The notes under the pieces are model-generated. The model did no database searches. It worked only from the letters and a program-made list of their open reading frames with translations, and had not been told where the DNA came from. This document shows positions 1 through 11,153 of a DNA stretch of 38,771 nt, piece by piece (the first letter of the stretch is position 1; every line of letters begins with the position of its first letter). The stretch lies in NCBI GenBank assembly GCA_027593035.1, contig JAQCJQ010000010.1, positions 1 through 38,771 on the forward strand, written 5' to 3'. Made by a program: the position numbers and the translations under genes. This stretch comes from Bacteroidota bacterium (GTDB taxonomy: Bacteria; Bacteroidota; Bacteroidia; Flavobacteriales_D; Sanyastnellaceae).

Positions 1-3000
1 TCGGTCGTTCGGAAGAGCAATTCGCCCCACTTGTTGAACACCACCATTTCGAATTCTACGATGCCCAAGTGATGGGGGTGGAATACGTCATTGTCCAAAC
101 TTGCTGGGTCGTATCCGCCGCCATTGGATCCCCCGTTGTTGGGCGTGAAAGCCGTCGGGAATTCCATGAAACCACCGTTGGTCGCTTCAATGGCTTCTTC
201 TATGATGAAGGTGCTCGGGCAGTTGAAGGCGTTGTTTGCTGTCAGAGAAACATCGTAGATCCCCGCTTCGCTGTACGTGTAAATTGGGTTCTCTTCCGTG
301 CTGACCATGCCGTCGCCAAACGTCCAGAGGAATTCAGTGGCACCTTGATCAGACAGGTTGATGAACTCAACCGGCTGGTCTGGAGCCACGACTTCAGAAG
401 GACTGAAGACAAAAGCTGCCGTTGCAGATGGGAAGACTTCTACTGTGGCATAATGCACGGCTTCATGTTCTTGCCCTTCGTATCCGATGGCTGTCAAGGA
501 GACGTTGTAGACTCCCGGACGCGTGTAAACGTGCACCGGAGATTCTTCAGACGTCATGTAATCATCACCAAAGTCCCACACATAGCCTGCTCCATGGTTG
601 GAGAGGTTATCAAAAGCGACCAGCAATGGAGCGCATCCAGCACCGCTACCCACGAAGTCGGCAACCGGATTTGGAGAGAGGATTTGAATCTGCTCAGTTT
701 GGGCGTCGGCGCAGTAGCCGTTGTCCACGAGCAAGGTGATGTTGTAAGTTCCCCACGTGTTGTAGGTGTGGAAAATAGGCTGCTCTCCAGCCAATTCAGC
801 ACCGTCACCAAAGCTCCAGTATTGAACTGCAGCATTAGACGACAAGCTCATGTTGTTGATTCCCACGGTTGCATTCGGGTACGTCTGGCTAACCGGAGTC
901 ACCGAGAAGGAAGCGATTGGCATAGGATAAACATGTACCCCAACGGATACGGTGTCCACACAGCCATAAGCTGATTGTGCAATCAACTGCACCTCATACA
1001 CCAAATCTTCATCGGTATTGTTCACAAAAGCGTGATCCGGCTGCACCTCGTTAGAAGGGATGGAGCCATCGTTGAAGTTCCAGCTAAAGGCAACAGCGCC
1101 TTCAGATTGATTGATCAACTGGGCATTCACAGGAGAGCAACCCGCCGTTACGGCACTGAATGCTGCGTTCAAATGCGGAGCAACTTCAAAGGATACGGTC
1201 GCTTCGGAAGCACACCCGTGATCGTTTATCGTGGTCAATACGGTTTCGTACACGATCAATTCTGACGTTGGATTGAAGAACACCTTGCTGTGCAGGCTAT
1301 CGTTGGTAGCGGATGTCTGACCATTTCCATAAGCCCACATGTTGGAGGTCTGGCCTTCACTCAGGTTTTCAAAAGTGACTTCTACCGGGTAGCAGCCATC
1401 CAAGTTGTTCAGGCTCAATTGAGCCTGAGGAGTTCCCCAAACGATCAGGTCCACAGTTGTTGTGTCTGAGCAACCCGCTGCGTTCTGAGCGACCAGGGTC
1501 ACGACGTAAGTTGTGTCCAAAGTGCTTTCGCTGCTGAAGAGATGTTCCGGTGCAGAGGCATTCGACATGCTGCCATCGCCAAACAACCACATGGCCGTGC
1601 CAGTAGCATTGATGGAGTTGTTGCCCAATTGAACAAGGGCTGGCGCACAAGCGGCTTCTGGAGTTTCGATGGCCGCTGTCACTTTCGGGTGGACCGTATG
1701 GGCTACCGTTGTTGCTGCAGCGCAACCAAAATCGGTGAAGACTTCTTGCGTCAATGTGAAGGTCAGATCGCTTGCGCTATCATTGGAGTATGTGACCGGA
1801 ATGCTCGTCAAATCGGAATTGATCAACGTTGTACCATTGCCCAAGTTCAAGACCACGCTGTCGGCAAAGGCAGACGCATTGGAAATCAACACTTCCGTTT
1901 CGGCGCAAGAAGCAGCCGTTTCTATGGACAGTCCGGTCAATGGAGTGGGGTGAACGGTGACATCAAAAGTGGATTGATCTGCACAGCCGTTTTCGCTCAT
2001 GATGGCCAATGAAACCGTGTAGTTGGCATCGGCCCCCATCGCTCCAGCATAGGAGGTCGCCGTCATAGCTTCCGTTGATTCGCTTTCATTGCCCAAATCC
2101 CATTGAATGGTCTCAACGGCAGCACCGATGTATTCCAGGTTTGTTTCAAATGGAGCACATCCTTCAACAGAACCCACCCAAGTGGCAAAGACTTCCGGGA
2201 AAACAGTCACAGAATCCAATTTCAAATCACTGCATCCCAAGGCATGCGTTGCGGTCAAAGCGACCGTGTAAGTCATCAGTGCAGATTCACCCTCATACGT
2301 GTAATCGTGATCCGACGTGTTGCTGAATGCGTTCTCATTGCCATTGCCATAATCCCAGTCATAGATGTCCGCGCGAACGCTTTCATTGGAAAATACGACA
2401 TCGAATGGAGCACATCCAGCATCCGAATTCTTGGAGAAATTGGCAATGGGTTGTGGCTTCACTGCGATGGTTGTGCTCGTTTCGTTGAAACAACCGTACT
2501 CGTTGGCTCCTTGGAACTGGATGTTGTGGCTTTCCAAAACATCGGAATTGTTGAACCAACTGTGCGAAGGTGTCGCCTCATTGGACATGGTGCCATCACC
2601 GAAAGACCAAAAAGTCGTTACCGCATCCTCCATAATGGGCATGATCGCTACAAACGGCGAGCAGGCTTCAGCGAACTCCAAATCCAAAGCATAGACCGGC
2701 GTAGGCAGGACATTGATTTCCGCAGTGCGCTCATCCGTGCAGCCCAATGCGTCAATAGCAATCAAGGTGACCGTAAAAGTGGTGGGTTCACCACTGGTTT
2801 CATACGTCCATTCAACATCTGAAGCACTGGCCATGCTCTCAGGAGCTTGACCATTTCCGAAACTCCAAACGTAGCTATCAGCACCTTCACTAGCATTGCT
2901 GAAAGTGGTGTTCAAAGGCTCACATCCGCTGTCGACGCTCATATCAAAAGCAGCAACCGGTTGAGGCTTGACGTGGACCATGGCCGAAGCCGTTCCGAAA

Positions 3001-5324
3001 CATCCGTCTGCCGTTTGTCCCTCGAAAGAAACCAAAGCAGAAAGGAGCTCGTCGGAATTGTTGGCCCAGGTGTGAGTGGGGTTGATTTCGTTGGAAGACG
3101 TCCCGTCACCAAAGCTCCACGTCACGTTTTGCGCACCTGCGATGGTGGGCATGGTGATTACGAGTGGAGAACATACCGAATCCGTAGCGAGTTGCAAATT
3201 GAAGTCCGAGGCAGGGAATACCGTTACGATTTCCGTTGCAGTATCGGCACAACCCAAGGCATCCGTCGCCGTCAACGTCACGGTGTAGTTGGCGGTCTCG
3301 CTTCCTGTTTGGAAGGCGTGGTTGACATCGCCATTGGCCTGTGCATCGTCTGACCCGTCACCGAAGTTCCACGTGTAAACATCACCGTTGGTGCTGTTGT
3401 TGTTGAACAGGGCATCAAAAGGCGCACATCCACCGTTGGCAGAAGCCAAAGCGATCTCAGCAACCGGTTGAGGCTTGACGTGGACCGTTTGCTGGTGTGT
3501 ATCACTGCAACCAAAAGCAGACGTCCCAGAAAAAGTAACGACAGAAGTCAGCAATTCGCCCGTTGCATTCGCGAGATACAAGTAAGGCTGTGCTTCGATC
3601 GAAGTCTCTCCGTTCCCGAAGTCCCAGTTGAATGTAGAAGCGCTGAAAATAGCGGGCATGGTCAATTCGAGCGGACTGCAAACTGAGTCCGTAGAGAGGT
3701 TAAAGGAAAAGTTCGCTTCTGGAAAAACTTCCATGATAACCGATGTGGTATCATGACAGCCATTGCTAGCATTGGCGATCAATTCCAAAGAACTTGCTTG
3801 CAATAAAGTCGAGGTGTTCTCAAAAGTATGATTGAGGTTGGTCGCGTTGCCCGCGGCCATCCCATCAATCAACCACTCGTATGCAGAGGCGCCTTCTGAC
3901 TGGTTGTTGATTGTGGGTTGGAAAGGTGCGCAAGCGGATTGATCGCTAATGGAAAATGCGGCTACGGCTTGAGCATGTGCGATGACGCTCAAGTTTTGTG
4001 TAGATGAGCATCCGTGCTCAGAAGTGGCTGTGACCGAAAGGTCGTGCGTGGAGTCATTCCCGATGGTCGTGATGAAATCGTGAGTCACCTGATCACCAGA
4101 CCCTGTGTCGCCATTTCCAAAGTCCCATGAATAGGAAGCGTTCAATGTCCCCGTAGCTTCCAAGTTCACGGACAAGGGTGAACATCCTTCCAGCAGGTCC
4201 GCCGAAACGGCGACCGTTGGAATGGCATGTGCAGATAAGGTGTCCGTAAACGTAGAGGTGCATAAAGGGGTGTTGACAGTCAATGAGACCGGGTAGTCTC
4301 CTGCGAAAGCATAATCGATGCTAGGGTTGGAAACATAGCTGGTTTGGCCATCACCGAATTGCCAGTACCACCCAATGATGTCCGTTCCCCATTGAATCGT
4401 CGATGTATCAACGAAATTCGATGGCTCACCAATGCAAACGGCTTCTACTTCAAAGCCAGCGACGGGTTCAGGATGAATGATCACCATTTCTTGCATGGAT
4501 GTGCGGCAACCGTTGATTCCTGTGACCTCCAAGGAGATCGGATACGTGCCTGCTCCGTTCAATTCGATGGTATCCAATGTGCTCCCAGCATTGAAGTACG
4601 GGGATACACCAAAGGACCAAACGTATTGAAAGGCATCCACTGAAACGGCTTCTCCGCTCAACTGAGCAGCCCCGCATGCTGATGATTGTGAAAGGATCAT
4701 TTCCGCGTCCGGTCGATCGAGTACGAATATGGTTACGCTAGACGTATCCGAACACGCGGCCTCTGTTCCATTGTAAAGAACCACGCTCTGAACCTCATAG
4801 ATTCCAGCGTTCTGGAATGTAAAGCTCACATGGCCCGTTGCCGTTGGAAGAAACACAGGATTCACACCAAAATTCCACTTGTATTGAATGCCCGGTCCAC
4901 TCGTTTCTTGATGAAACTGAACAGCCGTTCCCTGACAAATGACATTTGAGCTGCTCCAGAAATCGCTCACAGGAGCGCCGGCATAATACAATCCCGTAAG
5001 GGTACAAGAACCGTCCGCTTCAGAAAGCGTTACCTCGTAATGAGGGTTGCCTGCTACATACGGATGGGTGACCGCGGGGTCCCCAGGTTCAAACGCTCCA
5101 AATGTTTGCAACGGGCTGTCGTCTCCCCAGTCGACTACCAAGTTGCTCCATGAAGAGGCGGTTTCAATCGCCAAGATGTCCAAGCCATCGGTGCAATTGT
5201 ACCAAACCGGATTGCTGGTGATTTCCCCAGCAGAACCCATTACCTGAGGGCATTGGGCCAATGCCAATTGGGGTGCCGTGAAGCACGCCATGAGCATGAA
5301 TGAGATGAAAATTGAGCGGATCAT
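1..5324 (-). CDS. Giant secreted PKD-repeat protein with gliding-motility-type C-terminal domain (partial, 3' end cut off)
   Basis: The frame is open from an ATG at 5324-5322 to the left edge, giving 1774 codons without a stop. The first residues form a signal peptide (MIRSIFISFML...ALAQ, cleavage probably near residue 23). About 20 PKD-like domains follow, recognised by repeated W-x-F-G-D/N-G cores and by V-T/S-L-T-A-x-x-x-x-G-C ends. The last visible part (plus-strand positions 1 to about 170) reads FPTAFTPNN...NDVFHP...FNKWGELLFRT, the start of the CHU_C / gliding-motility-associated C-terminal domain used as a type B T9SS sorting signal. Perhaps 30-40 residues are missing beyond the window. 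PKD proteins of this kind are exported to the cell surface in Bacteroidota and are usually thought to act in adhesion or as stalks; that role is inference here. The gene lies 46 nt downstream of the YkgJ-like gene and may be read from the same transcript. Confidence 0.93.
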   Translation of the reverse strand, partial: MIRSIFISFMLMACFTAPQLALAQCPQVMGSAGEITSNPVWYNCTDGLDILAIETASSWSNLVVDWGDDSPLQTFGAFEPGDPAVTHPYVAGNPHYEVTLSEADGSCTLTGLYYAGAPVSDFWSSSNVICQGTAVQFHQETSGPGIQYKWNFGVNPVFLPTATGHVSFTFQNAGIYEVQSVVLYNGTEAACSDTSSVTIFVLDRPDAEMILSQSSACGAAQLSGEAVSVDAFQYVWSFGVSPYFNAGSTLDTIELNGAGTYPISLEVTGINGCRTSMQEMVIIHPEPVAGFEVEAVCIGEPSNFVDTSTIQWGTDIIGWYWQFGDGQTSYVSNPSIDYAFAGDYPVSLTVNTPLCTSTFTDTLSAHAIPTVAVSADLLEGCSPLSVNLEATGTLNASYSWDFGNGDTGSGDQVTHDFITTIGNDSTHDLSVTATSEHGCSSTQNLSVIAHAQAVAAFSISDQSACAPFQPTINNQSEGASAYEWLIDGMAAGNATNLNHTFENTSTLLQASSLELIANASNGCHDTTSVIMEVFPEANFSFNLSTDSVCSPLELTMPAIFSASTFNWDFGNGETSIEAQPYLYLANATGELLTSVVTFSGTSAFGCSDTHQQTVHVKPQPVAEIALASANGGCAPFDALFNNNSTNGDVYTWNFGDGSDDAQANGDVNHAFQTGSETANYTVTLTATDALGCADTATEIVTVFPASDFNLQLATDSVCSPLVITMPTIAGAQNVTWSFGDGTSSNEINPTHTWANNSDELLSALVSFEGQTADGCFGTASAMVHVKPQPVAAFDMSVDSGCEPLNTTFSNASEGADSYVWSFGNGQAPESMASASDVEWTYETSGEPTTFTVTLIAIDALGCTDERTAEINVLPTPVYALDLEFAEACSPFVAIMPIMEDAVTTFWSFGDGTMSNEATPSHSWFNNSDVLESHNIQFQGANEYGCFNETSTTIAVKPQPIANFSKNSDAGCAPFDVVFSNESVRADIYDWDYGNGNENAFSNTSDHDYTYEGESALMTYTVALTATHALGCSDLKLDSVTVFPEVFATWVGSVEGCAPFETNLEYIGAAVETIQWDLGNESESTEAMTATSYAGAMGADANYTVSLAIMSENGCADQSTFDVTVHPTPLTGLSIETAASCAETEVLISNASAFADSVVLNLGNGTTLINSDLTSIPVTYSNDSASDLTFTLTQEVFTDFGCAAATTVAHTVHPKVTAAIETPEAACAPALVQLGNNSINATGTAMWLFGDGSMSNASAPEHLFSSESTLDTTYVVTLVAQNAAGCSDTTTVDLIVWGTPQAQLSLNNLDGCYPVEVTFENLSEGQTSNMWAYGNGQTSATNDSLHSKVFFNPTSELIVYETVLTTINDHGCASEATVSFEVAPHLNAAFSAVTAGCSPVNAQLINQSEGAVAFSWNFNDGSIPSNEVQPDHAFVNNTDEDLVYEVQLIAQSAYGCVDTVSVGVHVYPMPIASFSVTPVSQTYPNATVGINNMSLSSNAAVQYWSFGDGAELAGEQPIFHTYNTWGTYNITLLVDNGYCADAQTEQIQILSPNPVADFVGSGAGCAPLLVAFDNLSNHGAGYVWDFGDDYMTSEESPVHVYTRPGVYNVSLTAIGYEGQEHEAVHYATVEVFPSATAAFVFSPSEVVAPDQPVEFINLSDQGATEFLWTFGDGMVSTEENPIYTYSEAGIYDVSLTANNAFNCPSTFIIEEAIEATNGGFMEFPTAFTPNNGGSNGGGYDPASLDNDVFHPHHLGIVEFEMVVFNKWGELLFRTT
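2951..3486. repeat. 29-bp exact direct repeat marking a two-domain PKD super-repeat
   Basis: The same 29 bases (cagcaaccggttgaggcttg plus nine more) occur at 2951-2979 and 3458-3486, 507 bp (169 codons) apart and in frame with the giant PKD gene. They encode the V-H-V-K-P-Q-P-V-A linker. A diverged third copy of the linker (VKPQPIA) lies one period further along, near 2435-2465. Between linkers, two PKD types alternate, one beginning near G-C-A/E-P and one near A/V-C-S-P. This indicates that the protein grew by duplication of domain pairs. Confidence 0.85.
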
Positions 5325-5370: not shown

Positions 5371-5871
5371 TTATTTTTTGCCCACTCCGGCCTCTAGAAT
5401 TTTTTGAACCATGCTCGATACCGCTGGGCAAACGTGGGCGTTTTCCTCTGTCAGCGCTAAAATGCCCGACATCTGTTTTCGATCCGTGTGCGGATACTCG
5501 CTGCACGCTTGTGGGCGGACATCATAGATGTTACAAGAGTTGTCTTCATGCAAGAAGGGGCAAGGCGCTTGCTGCAAGACCCAATCACCTTCGTCATCCA
5601 TTTTCAAATACTTCGCACTGAACGCACCGATTTTCATGCGCAAAGACTTCGAAATCCGGTCGATGTCGCGGGCTTTGAAGATGGGGCTGGTTGTTTTGCA
5701 GCAATGGGCACAATCCAGGCAATCCACCTCAGCGAATACTTCTTCGTGTCGCTGATGGAATGTGGCGTCCAAATCACGCGGAGGCTTGCGACTCCAACGT
5801 TGGAATAAGGCATGGACCTTCTTGCGGTATTTTTTCGACCAAGCGAGCTGCTCCTCTAATTCTACTTTCAA
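5371..5871 (-). CDS. YkgJ-family cysteine-cluster protein (putative zinc/iron-chelating)
   Basis: This is a 166-residue soluble protein with no signal peptide. It has the family's CxxCxxCC core at C51, C54, C57 and C58, then C104, C113, C123 and C148, a layout typical of the CxxCxxCC (YkgJ, PF03692) family, whose members are thought to bind Zn or an Fe-S cluster. The biochemical function of the family is not established. The start is a TTG at 5871-5869 that overlaps the stop of the upstream peroxidase gene by 4 nt (TTGA); the next in-frame Met is residue 80, inside the conserved region, so TTG is very probably right. Translational coupling to the MbnH/MauG-like gene suggests a joint role, for example in metal handling or maturation of the exported partners, but that is inference. 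Confidence 0.85.
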
Positions 5872-7010
5872 TGGGGATCTTGGAATTGACTAGCCGCAAT
5901 GAATGACGTGTCCGTCAACGTTTCAAGAAAAGCCAGAAGTTGCGTTTTTTGAACGGGGTTCAGCGCAAGGCCGCCCGTCGTGTATTTCATGAAGGGATCA
6001 ATGGTGGTCGAAGGCACCCCTCCCGAATTGTAATGATCCAAAACTTCTTCCAGTGTAATGAAACGCCCATCATGCATGTAAGGCGCAGTAAGTGTTATGT
6101 TCCGCAAGGTCGGTGTTTTAAAACGGCCAGAATCCAGGGGCATGCCTGTGACTCCAGCACGACCGGCATCCGCTCCAAATGAGCCATCCAAGCCGTTGTT
6201 GCGAAAGAGGTAATCGCTGAATTGGAGGCCGGCTTCGCCGTGGCAATGAAAGCAGTCCCCGCCAAACTGACCGCCTGGGGTGGTTTCTGGATCGCCACCT
6301 TCACGCAGGAAAATCTCATACCCGGCAAACTCGTCATCACTCAACGAGGTTTCCCCTCTTCTCCACTGATCAAACTTTGAATCGGCGGAGATCAGGGTCC
6401 GTAGAAATTGCGCAATGGCTTTCGAAGTCAGTTCGGCCGTGATGGTTGTTGTGCCAAATGCTTCGAGGAACAATTGGGGGTAGCCTGGGGCTTCCGAGTT
6501 GGCTTGTAGCCGGGCGACGGCTTGGGGCCATGGCAAGGCCATTTCATCGGGATGCGCAACCGGTTCAAGAATCTGTTCTTCCAAAGTGGCCGCTCGCCCA
6601 TCCCAAAAATAGCTGGAAGCCCAACCGATGTTGATGATGGCCATGGCGTTTCGGATGCCCTGAGCTCCGGTAATGCCTGTGCTGTATGGACTGGGGTCTG
6701 AGAACCCATGCTCGGGCAAATGGCAACTTCCACAACTTATGCTGCCGTCCTCCGAAAGGGACTTTTCCCAAAAAAGCAGGTGTCCGAGGTGGACACCTTC
6801 TACCGTTAGCAGGTTGTCAGCCGGGATGTCCATGGGCGGAAAAAACGGCGGGATTTCCAGCAAATACGGAGTGGCTTCAGGATTGCAGTCGGCCCCGACG
6901 CACCCCGGGTCTTGACAACGATCACAGCTCGTAAGGCAGATCAATGCCAGCGCCCAGAGGAACCCGGTCAGCTGGGGGATTGGTCGGAATTGTGGTCTTG
7001 AAGCGATCAT
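5868..7010 (-). CDS. Di-heme cytochrome c peroxidase, MauG/MbnH-like lipoprotein
   Basis: The 380-residue protein has an N-terminal lipoprotein signal ([12 protein letters not shown]29), so it is probably anchored in the envelope. Two c-type heme sites are visible, CGSCH at 93-97 and CFHCH at 253-257, plus the family's Y-M-H-D-G-R-F segment near residue 310. This is the architecture of bacterial cytochrome c peroxidases, MauG and MbnH. Directly after the lipid Cys there is an unusual Cys-rich stretch (C29, C32, C37, C42). The ATG overlaps the stop of the MbnP-like gene by 4 nt (ATGA). In the MbnH/MbnP system the heme enzyme oxidises a Trp of MbnP to kynurenine; the pairing here makes that activity likely rather than plain H2O2 detoxification. 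Assignment to the superfamily is firm; the MbnH-type activity is inferred from context. Confidence 0.93.
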
Positions 7011-7801
7011 TGGCGAAGGGTCCAGGCATCGTCCATGAGATTCATGAGGCGGCCTCCTAGGGTTGTTCCTGAACCATTGTGCGTTACCGGATCCGTCACG
7101 ACGTCAATGCTGTCGGTCTCTCCAACCAATGCCTTGGCCGCATCAAAGACGAGCTCGTAGACCGTGAGTTGTCGCGATTGAATATAAACTGGTTCAGCGA
7201 ATTCGAGGGTGACTGTTCGGTAACTGCTGTCCGTTCCACAGTGATACGATAACGGCTCGAGGAGTGGGTCTCCCGCCTCTCCCGCGAATTTCCCCTCGTA
7301 TTTGACAAAAACATACCCGGATGACCACGTCCAAAACATGCCCGCGGAACCAGCGACACTGAGCGGGTGATCATTGGCGTATGAGGCGGGATCCATGTCG
7401 GAATTGATTTCCGGTGGAAGGCCCATCCCGAAACGAACGGCATCGTATACCCCAGCGGGAACAGGAGCTAAAATGCGGGGGTTGAGCACGCTGAAGTCGA
7501 TCAAGGCGACGTCTCCAATGGGCGCCCAATCCCCCGATTCAGAGCGCAGTTCCATCTCGGAGATGTACATCTGCACGTTATCCAATCGAATGGAATGCCC
7601 AAGGTGATCAATCGTGACGTCCCCCAGCACAGTGCTTTCCGCATTCCACTCCAATTGCGCATCAAAACGAAGCGTTCCCGGGATGGATTCGTTGCTCCAC
7701 CACCAAACCTGCGTGCACCCTTGGATCAGTAAAAAAGTGAATGCGACCCAAGTGACTGCATGCAGGGGCGTGTTCTTTCGTTTGGATGATTTGCAATTCA
7801 T
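7007..7801 (-). CDS. MbnP-like copper-binding lipoprotein
   Basis: The 264-residue protein (ATG at 7801-7799) starts with a basic stretch and a hydrophobic segment ending LLIQG|C29, a probable lipobox. The mature part matches the MbnP family in order: a V-Q-M-Y-I-S-E segment, a V-A-L-I-D-F strand, [15 protein letters not shown], and [14 protein letters not shown] with W157 and W159. MbnP proteins are periplasmic copper binders in which a Trp is converted to kynurenine by the partner MbnH; one of these Trp residues is the obvious candidate. The frame extends upstream to a GTG at 7855, but the ATG at 7801 puts the signal peptide near the N terminus and is preferred. It is the first gene of the minus-strand cluster and overlaps the peroxidase gene by 4 nt. 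Confidence 0.85.
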
Positions 7802-7811
7802 ATCAGAGAGG

Positions 7812-7842
7812 TTGGCTACTTCATTTAAGACACCTAATTTGG
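7812..7842 (+). promoter_or_regulatory. Possible -33/-7 promoter for the helicase-nuclease gene
   Basis: TTG at 7812-7814 is followed after 20 nt by TAATTTGG at 7835-7842, which matches five of the six fixed bases of the Bacteroidota -7 element TAnnTTTG. It would place the transcript start about 30 nt before the GTG start at 7881. The match is imperfect, so this is a weak call. Confidence 0.3.
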
Positions 7843-7880
7843 CAAGATGTTGCACAACCCTTTCAATTTCTGAATAAAAA

Positions 7881-10800
7881 GTGAGAACAAGCCAATCTAC
7901 ACCCGAATTCTTGATCGTTCGAGCATCGGCGGGTTCTGGGAAAACCTTCCGGCTGGTCCAAGAATATTTGCGGTGCTGTTTGCGAACGGATGATCCGACC
8001 TATTTCAGGAAAATTCTGGCCATCACGTTCACCAACAAGGCTGCGCAGGAAATGAAGGATCGGGTGTTGCGAGAGGTGCAGGCGGTTGCCGAAGGCGAGG
8101 GGGTGATGTTCGAAAAACTCCAAGAAGTGCTGGAAGTCGCTCCTGAGGAGATGCAACGCCGTGCTGAACAGCTTGGACAAAGCATGCTTTTCCGGTATGA
8201 GGATTTTGGCGTCATGACCATTGACAGTTTTGTGAACCGGTTGGTGCGCAGTTTTGCCCGCGATTTGGAATGGGACGATGCCTTTCAAATCCAGTTGGAT
8301 GAAGATGAACTCATTGACCAGGCTGTAGGTCGTGTATTGAATCGGGTCGGATTGCCGGGGGAAGAAGCGCTAACATCCATGATGGAAGGGTTTGTGCGCC
8401 AACAGGTGGAGGAGGAACGCAACACCATGTTGCGCGCGCAATTGATCAAATTCGGCAAGCAAGTCACGCGGGAACACATGCAGCCGGTGTTGCGCGCTTT
8501 GCCGCCGGACGAATGGCCCACCAAGCGATTTGGTGCGTATCGGACGGAAATTGCAGCGCACTTGAAAAGGTTGTATGCTGGACCTGTTGAAGCCGCCATG
8601 AAAGCCCAGAAAGCCATTCAGGATGCGGGCCTCAGTGATTCTGATTTTTCCTACGGCGCTTTGCCGAAATGGTTTGAAAAAATCCTTGCAGGTCAGGGAA
8701 GAAAAGCCACCCTTGGTGACCGTTTGACCAGGCAGTTTGAGTCCGATGGCTTTGGAAAGGCCAAGACGTCGGCCGCCACGTTGCAGACATTGGAAGGTCT
8801 AGCCCCCGTGTTCCTCAAGGTTCGCGAGGCTTGGGAAGGCGTTTATGATGGAGAGGAAGGGCAAAAGAACAAGCTGCTAGACCACCTGCAAGAGCGAGTC
8901 AGTCTCATTGGTACGTTGGCTTTGATTCGAGACGCTTTGGAGGAGGTGCAGGTGGAGTCCAATGTGCGGTTGCTGTCCTCACTGAATCGCGAGATTGCTG
9001 AATTGGTTCGAAACAATCCGGCCCCCTACATCTTTGAACGCTTGGGCAATCGGTACCAGCACATTTTCATTGATGAATTCCAGGACACCTCCATCACCCA
9101 ATGGCACAACTTGGTGCAATTGTTTGAGCACATCTTATCCACTCAGCACATGGGCATGGTGGTGGGTGATGGAAAGCAAGCCATTTACCGTTGGCGCAAC
9201 GGAAACTATGAGCAATTGCAGGCGTTACCGGATTTGATCGATGACCCGGGACCGGTTCTTTTGGAAGCGGCCGAATCGCTGAAACGGAATGCCAAGCCCC
9301 TCCACCTCGAGAACAATTTCCGCTCAGGGAAAGCCATCGTGGGCTGGAATAACCGGCTCTTTCGTCACGTTCAAGGTTTGTTGCCACCAGACTTGCAATC
9401 CGTTTATGGCGCCCCCGATCAAGTGGCGATGAAATCCTTCAACGGCGCGGTGCATGTGGCGAGTTTGGTTGACAAAAAAGTAGGGGATCGCGAACGCCAA
9501 CGCCATGAATGGGTGCTCCAACGCATCTTGGCGCACACCGGAGGTCAGCTCGTGAAGGTCGGAGACCGGATGCAGTTTGAAGCCGTTGAATCGGCCGACC
9601 ATTTTAACCTATCGGACCTGGCCGTTTTGATGCGCAAAAATCGAGATGGCGCGGCCCTCGCGCAGTTCTTGTTGGATCATGGCATCACACCGTTCACAAC
9701 GGAAAGCCTGCATTTGGGACGGCACCCGGCCCCACGGGGTGTCATTGCTTTGCTTCGAAGCATTTTGGATCCGCTCAATCCGGTCCATGTCATTGACTTC
9801 CTGCAATGCTATACGGCGTTGCATCCCGAGGTGGATGAAGCGGCTTGGTTGTGGGAGCATCACGAGATAGAAAGTTATGTTTCTGCTGACGGCCAAGAAC
9901 GTGAACGCGGGAAAGTGCGCACAGAAGCCTTGCTTCAAAAACTCGTCCCAACCCTTCAGTTGGAAAAGCGAAGTGCCGAACCGTTGGTCGCTTTGGTGGG
10001 GCATTGTTTCGACGTGTTGGGCTGGAGCGAAAGTCATCCCGCATATGCCGAGGGGCTGCTGGAACTTGCCCATGAGGTCAGCAATCACCGTCGTTCTGGA
10101 TTGCCGGCTTTCATTGCCACCTGGGATCGATCGGGTTACAAGCGGAGCATTCGGGTTAGTGGCGCGCAGGATGCGGTTCAAATCATGACGCCTCACAAGG
10201 CAAAAGGGTTGGCCTTTCCCGTTGTGATTGCCCCGATGGTACACGATAAAATTGCGACGTTCAAAGACGAGTTGCCCGTCTTGCTGGATGCGAAAAAATA
10301 TGGATTGCCCGCTGCGTTGCTCCGGGACGCTGATTTGAAAAATACGGAACTGGATTCGGAGCGTCAACGCGAAATCGACCGCACATTGCTGGACGCGTTG
10401 AACGTAGCGTATGTCACCATGACTCGGCCCATTGAGCGGTTGGATGTGCTCCTTGAATTCGAAGCCGAGGGCGTCCACGAAGAAGGCCCCAAGAGCTTAC
10501 CACAGCTTCTTCTGCAGAGCATCGAAGAGGAATTTTCCGGCCAAAGGTCAGCGGAGGGAACTTGGAATTTAGGCGCTGCAGACCGGAAACCACAGGACGA
10601 GGGCGCCCCTGATTCAGCTTTGAAAACACGGGAAACACATTTGAAATCGGGGGGTGCCATTCGCGCCATTGTGGCTCGTCCAAAAGGCGCTTGGTCTGAA
10701 GCCATGCCGGGAGGAGCGTTGAGCCAGCGCACATATGGCAATGCCGTTCATGGCCTGTTGGCCCAAGTCGGAGAGCTTGCGGATTGGAATTCCATCCAGC

Positions 10801-11153
10801 CTCGATTGGGTTCGTCGTTTGGGATGGATGCCGCGCAGCGTGATGAGGTGATCGAGGCCGTTGAAGCGGTGTTGTTGCATGAGGAATGGAGCCGATTTTT
10901 TGAGACACCGTCGGATCAGCGGTTCACGGAAAGGCCCTTGCGATTGACATCCGGAGATGAGGGGCGTCCAGATCGCGTGGTGAAACTGGAAGACGGCTGG
11001 CACGTGTTGGACTACAAAACAGGGGCTCCCGAAAAAAAGCATCACGCCCAAGTGAACGCATACATGCAGGCCATTGCCGAAATGGAGCCGGCAGAAAAAG
11101 TCCATGGTTGGTTGCTGTACACGAGGGAGTTGAAGCTTGTTCGGGTCGATTGA
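7881..11153 (+). CDS. addA: AddA/RecB-like UvrD-family helicase-nuclease
   Basis: This 1090-residue superfamily 1 helicase has all expected motifs: Walker A ASAGSGKT (15-22), motif Ia TFTNKAAQEM (49-58), motif II DEFQDT (about 398), motif III GDGKQAIYRWR (about 430), motif IV NFRSGKAI, motif V around TPHKAKGLAFPVV and motif VI VTMTRPIERL. The C terminus adds a RecB-type PD-(D/E)XK nuclease with G-N-A-V-H, then R-P-D-R and L-D-Y-K-T-G (about 1043), then a Q-V-N-A-Y helix. It would unwind and resect broken DNA ends for recombination together with an AddB-type subunit, which is not in this window. The start is a GTG at 7881, divergent from the MbnP-like gene. The call between AddA and another RecB-like subunit rests on domain order and length only. 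Confidence 0.88.
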   Translation: MRTSQSTPEFLIVRASAGSGKTFRLVQEYLRCCLRTDDPTYFRKILAITFTNKAAQEMKDRVLREVQAVAEGEGVMFEKLQEVLEVAPEEMQRRAEQLGQSMLFRYEDFGVMTIDSFVNRLVRSFARDLEWDDAFQIQLDEDELIDQAVGRVLNRVGLPGEEALTSMMEGFVRQQVEEERNTMLRAQLIKFGKQVTREHMQPVLRALPPDEWPTKRFGAYRTEIAAHLKRLYAGPVEAAMKAQKAIQDAGLSDSDFSYGALPKWFEKILAGQGRKATLGDRLTRQFESDGFGKAKTSAATLQTLEGLAPVFLKVREAWEGVYDGEEGQKNKLLDHLQERVSLIGTLALIRDALEEVQVESNVRLLSSLNREIAELVRNNPAPYIFERLGNRYQHIFIDEFQDTSITQWHNLVQLFEHILSTQHMGMVVGDGKQAIYRWRNGNYEQLQALPDLIDDPGPVLLEAAESLKRNAKPLHLENNFRSGKAIVGWNNRLFRHVQGLLPPDLQSVYGAPDQVAMKSFNGAVHVASLVDKKVGDRERQRHEWVLQRILAHTGGQLVKVGDRMQFEAVESADHFNLSDLAVLMRKNRDGAALAQFLLDHGITPFTTESLHLGRHPAPRGVIALLRSILDPLNPVHVIDFLQCYTALHPEVDEAAWLWEHHEIESYVSADGQERERGKVRTEALLQKLVPTLQLEKRSAEPLVALVGHCFDVLGWSESHPAYAEGLLELAHEVSNHRRSGLPAFIATWDRSGYKRSIRVSGAQDAVQIMTPHKAKGLAFPVVIAPMVHDKIATFKDELPVLLDAKKYGLPAALLRDADLKNTELDSERQREIDRTLLDALNVAYVTMTRPIERLDVLLEFEAEGVHEEGPKSLPQLLLQSIEEEFSGQRSAEGTWNLGAADRKPQDEGAPDSALKTRETHLKSGGAIRAIVARPKGAWSEAMPGGALSQRTYGNAVHGLLAQVGELADWNSIQPRLGSSFGMDAAQRDEVIEAVEAVLLHEEWSRFFETPSDQRFTERPLRLTSGDEGRPDRVVKLEDGWHVLDYKTGAPEKKHHAQVNAYMQAIAEMEPAEKVHGWLLYTRELKLVRVD

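Follow-up and report, generated by a model that had tools for sequence, protein, structure and literature searches.

The closest described relatives of the locus studied here are the MbnP-MbnH proteins, the metallo-mystery pair of TIGR04052 and TIGR04039, represented in the PDB by 7l6g (MbnP of Methylosinus trichosporium) and 6e1c (MbnH). A 2021 PNAS paper reportedly found that MbnP binds Cu(I), that the first tryptophan of its WxW motif is the residue oxidized, and that a histidine and a methionine are its copper ligands. Kynurenine-Cu(I) sites beside a MauG-like partner are also known from CorA-CorB and MopE-SACCP, which resemble the locus described here in setting a copper protein, there with a Trp-derived kynurenine, beside a MauG-like di-heme protein, and differ from it in the site itself, which consists of two His, water, and the kynurenine (PMC3912023). 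MauG, the di-heme enzyme of TTQ biogenesis, is comparable as an enzyme with a Tyr-His six-coordinate heme that acts on a protein Trp, and Met versus Tyr at this ligand position separates the classical peroxidases (Met-His) from MauG and BthA (Tyr-His) (PMC6405878).

We analyzed a window of 38,771 nt (contig JAQCJQ010000010.1 of the Bacteroidota assembly GCA_027593035.1), in which three consecutive minus-strand genes, each overlapping the next by 4 nt, encode an MbnP-like lipoprotein (P), an MbnH-like di-heme enzyme (H), and a YkgJ-like cysteine-cluster protein (Y) (Table 1). A sequence-only reading had proposed a coupled triad, and both overlaps it named, ATGA at 7007-7010 (P/H) and TTGA at 5868-5871 (H/Y), are present, with the starts, the stops, and the residue numbers (W157 and W159 of P; C29, C32, C37, and C42 of H) being correct. 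Overlaps of 4 nt are frequent in bacteria and have little meaning on their own; the three genes would presumably be co-transcribed. The P-H pair shares with MbnP-MbnH the MbnP fold, the WxW motif, the adjacent di-heme enzyme, and the Tyr at the ligand position of the six-coordinate heme, and differs in that it scores below the equivalog cut-offs, lacks the four-Cys motif, consists of two proteins that both look like lipoproteins, lies in a genome with no MbnB match, is coupled to a YkgJ gene, and has an H of a subfamily (H2) with a paralog, H1, in sister genera.

Table 1. Features of the P-H-Y locus and its flanks, in window positions.
Feature	Position	Strand	Remarks
MbnP-family lipoprotein P	7007..7801	-	264 aa, ATG start, lipobox LIQGC29 by eye
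MbnH/MauG-like di-heme enzyme H, H2 subfamily	5868..7010	-	380 aa, ATG start, lipobox LTSC29 by eye
YkgJ-family (PF03692) cysteine-cluster protein Y	5371..5871	-	166 aa, TTG start
M155-F-W157-T-W159 motif of P	7325..7339	-	W157 (codon 7331-7333) is the candidate kynurenine and M155 a candidate ligand of Cu
H187 of P, candidate Cu ligand	7241..7243	-	by conservation; putative ligand role after the MbnP structure paper
First heme motif C93GSCH97 of H	6720..6734	-	
Second heme motif C253FHCH257 of H	6240..6254	-	
W136 of H, inter-heme Trp position (FWDGRA)	6603..6605	-	putative, by alignment and known structures
Y327 of H, where MauG-type enzymes have the Tyr that ligates the six-coordinate heme	6030..6032	-	by alignment with 6e1c
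Conserved element ahead of P that may be a promoter or operator	7826..7853	-	
UvrD/AddA-like helicase-nuclease, divergent context gene, outside the module	7881..11153	+	PF00580, PF12705
PKD-repeat protein encoded downstream of Y and continuing beyond the window edge	1..5324	-	PF18911, 12 stretches

P is a genuine MbnP relative, as the sequence-only reading had held. It matched the Pfam family MbnP (PF20243) with 94 bits against a gathering cut-off of 27, and its AlphaFold2 model (pLDDT 91.4, built with 44 sequences) found by Foldseek, with E up to 0.001, only six chains of 7l6g, with which it could be superposed at Z 17.9 over 201 aligned residues and 2.8 Å, while the next entry reached Z 8.0. 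Sequence searches of the PDB were weak, with 7l6g (E 0.33 and 0.38) outranked by 1e07 in one and by ketosteroid isomerases (E 0.006) in the other, which we took for chance matches, the fold search having settled the assignment. Against the equivalog model TIGR04052 (MbnP_like_WxW) P scored 42.8, below the curated cut-off of 140, and H likewise stayed under its own equivalog cut-offs (see below), which marks both as remote from the proteins that have been tested. The motif M155-F-W157-T-W159 aligns with GMAWNW of 7l6g, and the Trp conservation sought in an MbnP-family alignment was found: W157 and W159 are present in 83/83 distinct P proteins that adjoin an H, and in 9/11 that do not, both losses being paralogs in L222, so that the proposal of these two residues as candidate targets is borne out. 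W157, the first Trp of the pair, is presumably the target, and M155 and H187 are presumably the copper ligands. M155 was kept in 80 of the 83 P proteins beside an H, with three lacking it, and H187 in 79 (25/25 in a smaller alignment), with Asp instead in four, which suggests that the copper site may vary. P lacks the four-Cys motif to which the molecule name of 7l6g refers, its sole Cys beyond residue 30 being C188; C29 is, by eye, the lipobox cysteine, by which P would be lipid-anchored.

H, the product of the second gene, matched CCP_MauG (PF03150) with 175 bits (cut-off 25.6), carries two CxxCH heme motifs, and has MbnH (6e1c) as its best PDB match (E 1.3e-53, or 1.3e-72 with a profile), and thus profile and residues both agree with the MbnH identity proposed earlier. 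Its scores were 238.6 against TIGR04039 (MXAN_0977_Heme2, the MbnH family; cut-off 362.85) and 177.5 bits against TIGR03791 (cut-off 443.85); the latter sets it apart from MauG, as does the substrate, which here would be MbnP rather than methylamine dehydrogenase. By alignment with the Tyr of 6e1c (IDIYSEGG), Y327 occupies the position of the Tyr axial ligand of the six-coordinate heme, and W136, within a FWDGRA segment aligned with the peroxidases, is the residue that we take, from the alignment and known structures, to be the inter-heme Trp. The retention of FWDGRA, a match to the classical peroxidase 1iqc (E 4.2e-41), and the scores under both NCBIfam equivalog cut-offs would also fit an ordinary di-heme peroxidase that detoxifies H2O2 beside a merely co-located lipoprotein, with no Trp being modified. 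We regard this as very unlikely, since the Tyr is found at the six-coordinate heme position in all 71 proteins of the H2 clade described below, the best solved relative of H is MbnH, and the protein encoded beside it combines an MbnP fold with a strict WxW.

The N-terminal cysteines of H (C29, C32, C37, and C42) had been proposed as an additional metal site, which our data mostly reject. C29 is, by eye, the lipobox cysteine (LTSC) and presumably the lipid anchor, and would thus not be free for a metal, so that at most three Cys remain. The C-x2-C-x4/5-C-x2/4-C pattern was found in only 16/71 H2 proteins; the 11 from typed genomes all belong either to the window's genus, not every member of which has the pattern, or to its sister g5. 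The quartet is therefore a lipobox Cys with three further Cys, confined to close relatives.

The statement that methanobactin genes are missing was upheld, in that the own genome (93.56% complete) had 0 matches to the methanobactin biosynthesis family MbnB (PF05114), a model that found matches in 2/14 control genomes. No copper gene was recognized beside the operon. Upstream of P, an element of the form GCAAC...CAAATTAGGTGTCTTA was recognizable, to varying degree, in the 14 loci of the same genus whose stretch includes P, and also in g5, which makes a promoter or operator possible; a search of the own genome allowing ≤2 mismatches gave a single site for its 16-base core, and a regulon was rejected on this account. 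The divergent UvrD/AddA-like gene is the neighbor in most loci of the family too.

To place the locus among its relatives, we fetched 80 stretches, comprising 48 YkgJ-centered loci in the window's family (f1), 31 taken from the order's other families, and one around the second MbnP pair that the own genome carries. YkgJ was present in 51 of 66 f1 genomes, and the analysis covered 49 loci, the window among them, with the weaker-hit genomes G065 and G134 left out; gene order was assigned by profile-based calling. Two tandem H genes were found in most other f1 genera with fetched P-H loci, while g5 has one, a two-paralog state that the sequence-only reading did not mention. A tree was built from 123 distinct H proteins, with the second MbnP-MbnH pair of the own genome as root. 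The only H of the window's genus and those of YkgJ-less loci grouped in it with the second H (H2; clade of 71, support 0.91), and the first H (H1) grouped with MbnH proteins encoded singly in other Bacteroidota, where basal support was weak. Both CxxCH motifs, W136, Y327, and E144 were present in 71/71 H2 proteins. In the H1 clade (the first H of the tandem, L078-L106), both heme motifs were kept in 41/41, the inter-heme Trp in 1/41 (missing from 40/41), and the Tyr in 29/41 (missing from 12/41). This indicates that the window's genus retained the paralog that has all of the MauG-type residues. The order MbnP-H1-H2-YkgJ forms a four-gene operon in f1, and the window's triad, having H2 and lacking H1, is a reduced form of it, with the change presumably having run in the direction of gene loss. 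Among the named relatives, of which 537 were confirmed and the best 80 kept, many being the same genomes as in the fetched set, 17 had P-H-Y, 31 P-H-H-Y, 25 P-H or P-H-H without Y directly after, and 7 were cut or had no P plus H in the stretch. In L093 and L169, probably the same genome, P-H-H is inverted relative to YkgJ, and YkgJ and H2 converge with a 4-nt overlap.

Y belongs to PF03692 (CxxCxxCC), with 53.5 bits against a cut-off of 23, and eight Cys (C51, C54, C57, C58, C104, C113, C123, and C148) are invariant in 29/29 sequences. Its AlphaFold2 model (pLDDT 89.5) gave no match in a PDB fold search, with nothing under E 0.84. The TTG start looks real: it was used in 14/15 same-genus loci, the exception, L068, being a mis-called start, and other genera with coupled genes have ATG at the equivalent overlap, except for L094, with GTG and no overlap. 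FliB, a [4Fe-4S] methyltransferase, is similar in its clustered Cys motif and eight conserved Cys, and its motif has been likened to PF03692 (PMC8598068); Y differs in its 166 aa and in having CxxCxxCC rather than CX4CX3CC, and this resemblance of motifs is a lead for the chemistry of Y only.

The earlier suggestion that YkgJ is a new partner of the pair would give it an active part in the module, as an Fe-S enzyme of the cytoplasm or a protein that handles metal and readies P, H, or the supply of copper or heme. In f1 the linkage is indeed tight: Y lies directly after H on the same strand in 40/49 loci and in 15 of the 17 genera with fetched YkgJ (exceptions g6 and g13), the 4-nt H-Y overlap is conserved in 39 of these loci, and Y stays with H2 where the PKD gene is not next (L078, L082, L085, L086 (g9), L084 (g10), and L083 (g19)). 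The likeness of the FliB motif to PF03692 also speaks for such a member. Against this, our survey of gene neighborhoods found the P-H-Y order in a single Flavobacteriales family only, Y occurring elsewhere in other families. P or H adjoined Y in 0/31 loci of other families, L127 having a P-H pair 7.6 kb off; some of these stretches stop at contig ends, where a distant P/Y pair could be hidden. Class-wide, among the matches listed, the only P and Y within 10 kb on one contig outside f1 were on contig 6 of G208, where a second, weaker YkgJ copy is encoded on the other strand, ~4.9 kb away from MbnP, a check made by eye that could miss cases. YkgJ was found in 156/199 genomes of the order sample (one match in 138/156; two in 18, all 18 in f1). 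Over 129 genomes of the class, P and Y occurred together in 58, Y alone in 19, P alone in 32, and neither in 20, a co-occurrence that was not significant (Fisher p = 0.12, with no kinship correction). Moreover, distance from P-H makes little difference to the conservation of Y, since identity to the window's Y is 43-52% in L109-L138 (g13 and other families), where Y lies far from the pair, and 46-57% where it is coupled in genera other than the window's. By eye Y lacks a signal peptide, while both P and H look like exported proteins. Among the matches listed, no literature title placed a YkgJ gene beside MbnP or MbnH. On the gene-order and class-wide results, YkgJ as a conserved third member beyond f1 was rejected; Y is independently conserved and would be a protein of the cytoplasm, probably with an Fe-S or Zn cluster.

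In two genera, g11 and g12, P was present in 10/10 genomes and a YkgJ match in 0/10, with the same model having found YkgJ in 77/129 class genomes. A single H with FWDGR and two CxxCH motifs followed P in 9/10 of these, the tenth locus stopping at a contig end, and 14 named loci of the H2 lineage also show P-H without Y. P-H2 thus persists where the genome has no match to Y, which indicates that YkgJ is no necessary companion of P-H2, contrary to its proposed partnership. In 5/6 g11 genomes an Nramp-like gene stands between H and the PKD gene, the slot that Y has in sister genera, and it was found in 10/14 of the named YkgJ-less loci; L177:1991-3247, L212:5597-6853, and L236-L240 are examples from these two sets together. 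Two of the slot proteins scored 29.2 and 26.6 bits against Pfam Nramp, just below the cut-off of 29.8. A transporter of this type in place of Y hints at a metal theme and would speak for a third member. G089 (g11) and the three readable g12 genomes had neither YkgJ nor the Nramp-like gene in the slot. A working role of YkgJ in the maturation of P appears unlikely on these grounds, and Y would be dispensable for it; the H2-Y coupling within f1 is nevertheless strong, and as a pure hitch-hiker need not show a coupling of 40/49, we counted it against our preferred explanation, as we did the scores below the equivalog cut-offs, the missing four-Cys motif, the variation at M155 and H187, and the finding of no copper gene next to these genes.

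The gene downstream of Y offers another partner. YkgJ might work with the PKD protein, a secreted one, by modifying it ahead of its export in the way FliB modifies flagellin, with P-H having landed upstream. The PKD gene follows Y in many f1 loci and stays with it where P-H-H has moved away or is set off (L079, L080, and L094), and in family f9 a gene of cluster c9 follows Y in 9/16 fetched loci, the scored member, in L135, having a type IX sorting domain (CHU_C). Orthology of the two secreted proteins is not clear, however, and Y has no such neighbor in loci of g9, g10, and g13, so that we consider this connection highly improbable. In L064 the relative of the PKD protein is followed by a PorP/SprF gene.

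Other MbnP arrangements were encountered during the survey. The own genome holds a second MbnP-MbnH pair on contig 117 (L142:7652-9904), whose MbnP reads MHWGW at the WxW motif and has a tail for type IX sorting (34.7 bits against Por_Secre_tail). Such type IX-sorted MbnP recurs across the class (L224-L234): of ten long MbnP proteins, chosen for length and scanned, 10/10 matched MbnP and 8 had Por_Secre_tail above the cut-off, the others scoring 22.4 and 24.2 bits, and all 11 fetched loci (L224-L234) had at least one MbnH-like hit. Searching the literature for type IX secretion together with kynurenine and copper gave no papers, and no title among the matches listed concerned a type IX-sorted MbnP. 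L222:5243-7780 contains three tandem MbnP genes, two of them without WxW, with the nearest MbnH-like gene ~2 kb upstream. A protein of cluster c38 (305-313 aa) is encoded beside MbnP or MbnH in L101 (2385-3320), L102, and L127, and the L101 member had no Pfam match.

Taken together, we favor, with a probability of roughly 0.7, a methanobactin-independent MbnP-MbnH pair in which H2 makes W157 of P a kynurenine and P binds Cu(I), the pair being derived from a P-H1-H2-Y operon by loss of H1 and having no need of Y. The H2-type di-heme lipoprotein would be charged by peroxide (H2O2) and would then oxidize W157, the first Trp of the WxW, to kynurenine; the mature P, in the periplasm or at the outer membrane, would bind one Cu(I) through M155 and H187 and might serve in copper capture or buffering. 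The pair would have descended from the P-H1-H2-Y operon, with the divergent H1 lost in the window's genus, and Y would share the operon in f1 and not be required for the maturation of P. The evidence at the gene level is strong, and from it we infer the chemistry in this organism, including a part for P in copper homeostasis. A more elaborate scheme, in which the f1 operon would be a four-gene kynurenine-copper maturation system with a catalytic H2, an accessory or inhibitory H1, and a cytoplasmic Fe-S YkgJ that licenses or regulates it, the window's genus having a minimal version without H1, strikes us as quite unlikely.

In kind, the P-H pair is ordinary and had been correctly recognized, and Y is a family-specific operon companion, which is a caution against taking gene coupling for a new pathway member. 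MbnP-family proteins occur in 185/199 genomes of the order sample, nearly universally and far from the methanobactin makers. The H1/H2 split and the recurrent type IX-sorted MbnP variant are by-products worth attention. Family f1 provides a natural comparison, with one MbnP lineage standing beside two di-heme paralogs, one of them without the presumed charge-carrying Trp, and through this comparison of H1 with H2 the requirements of Trp-to-kynurenine maturation become testable.
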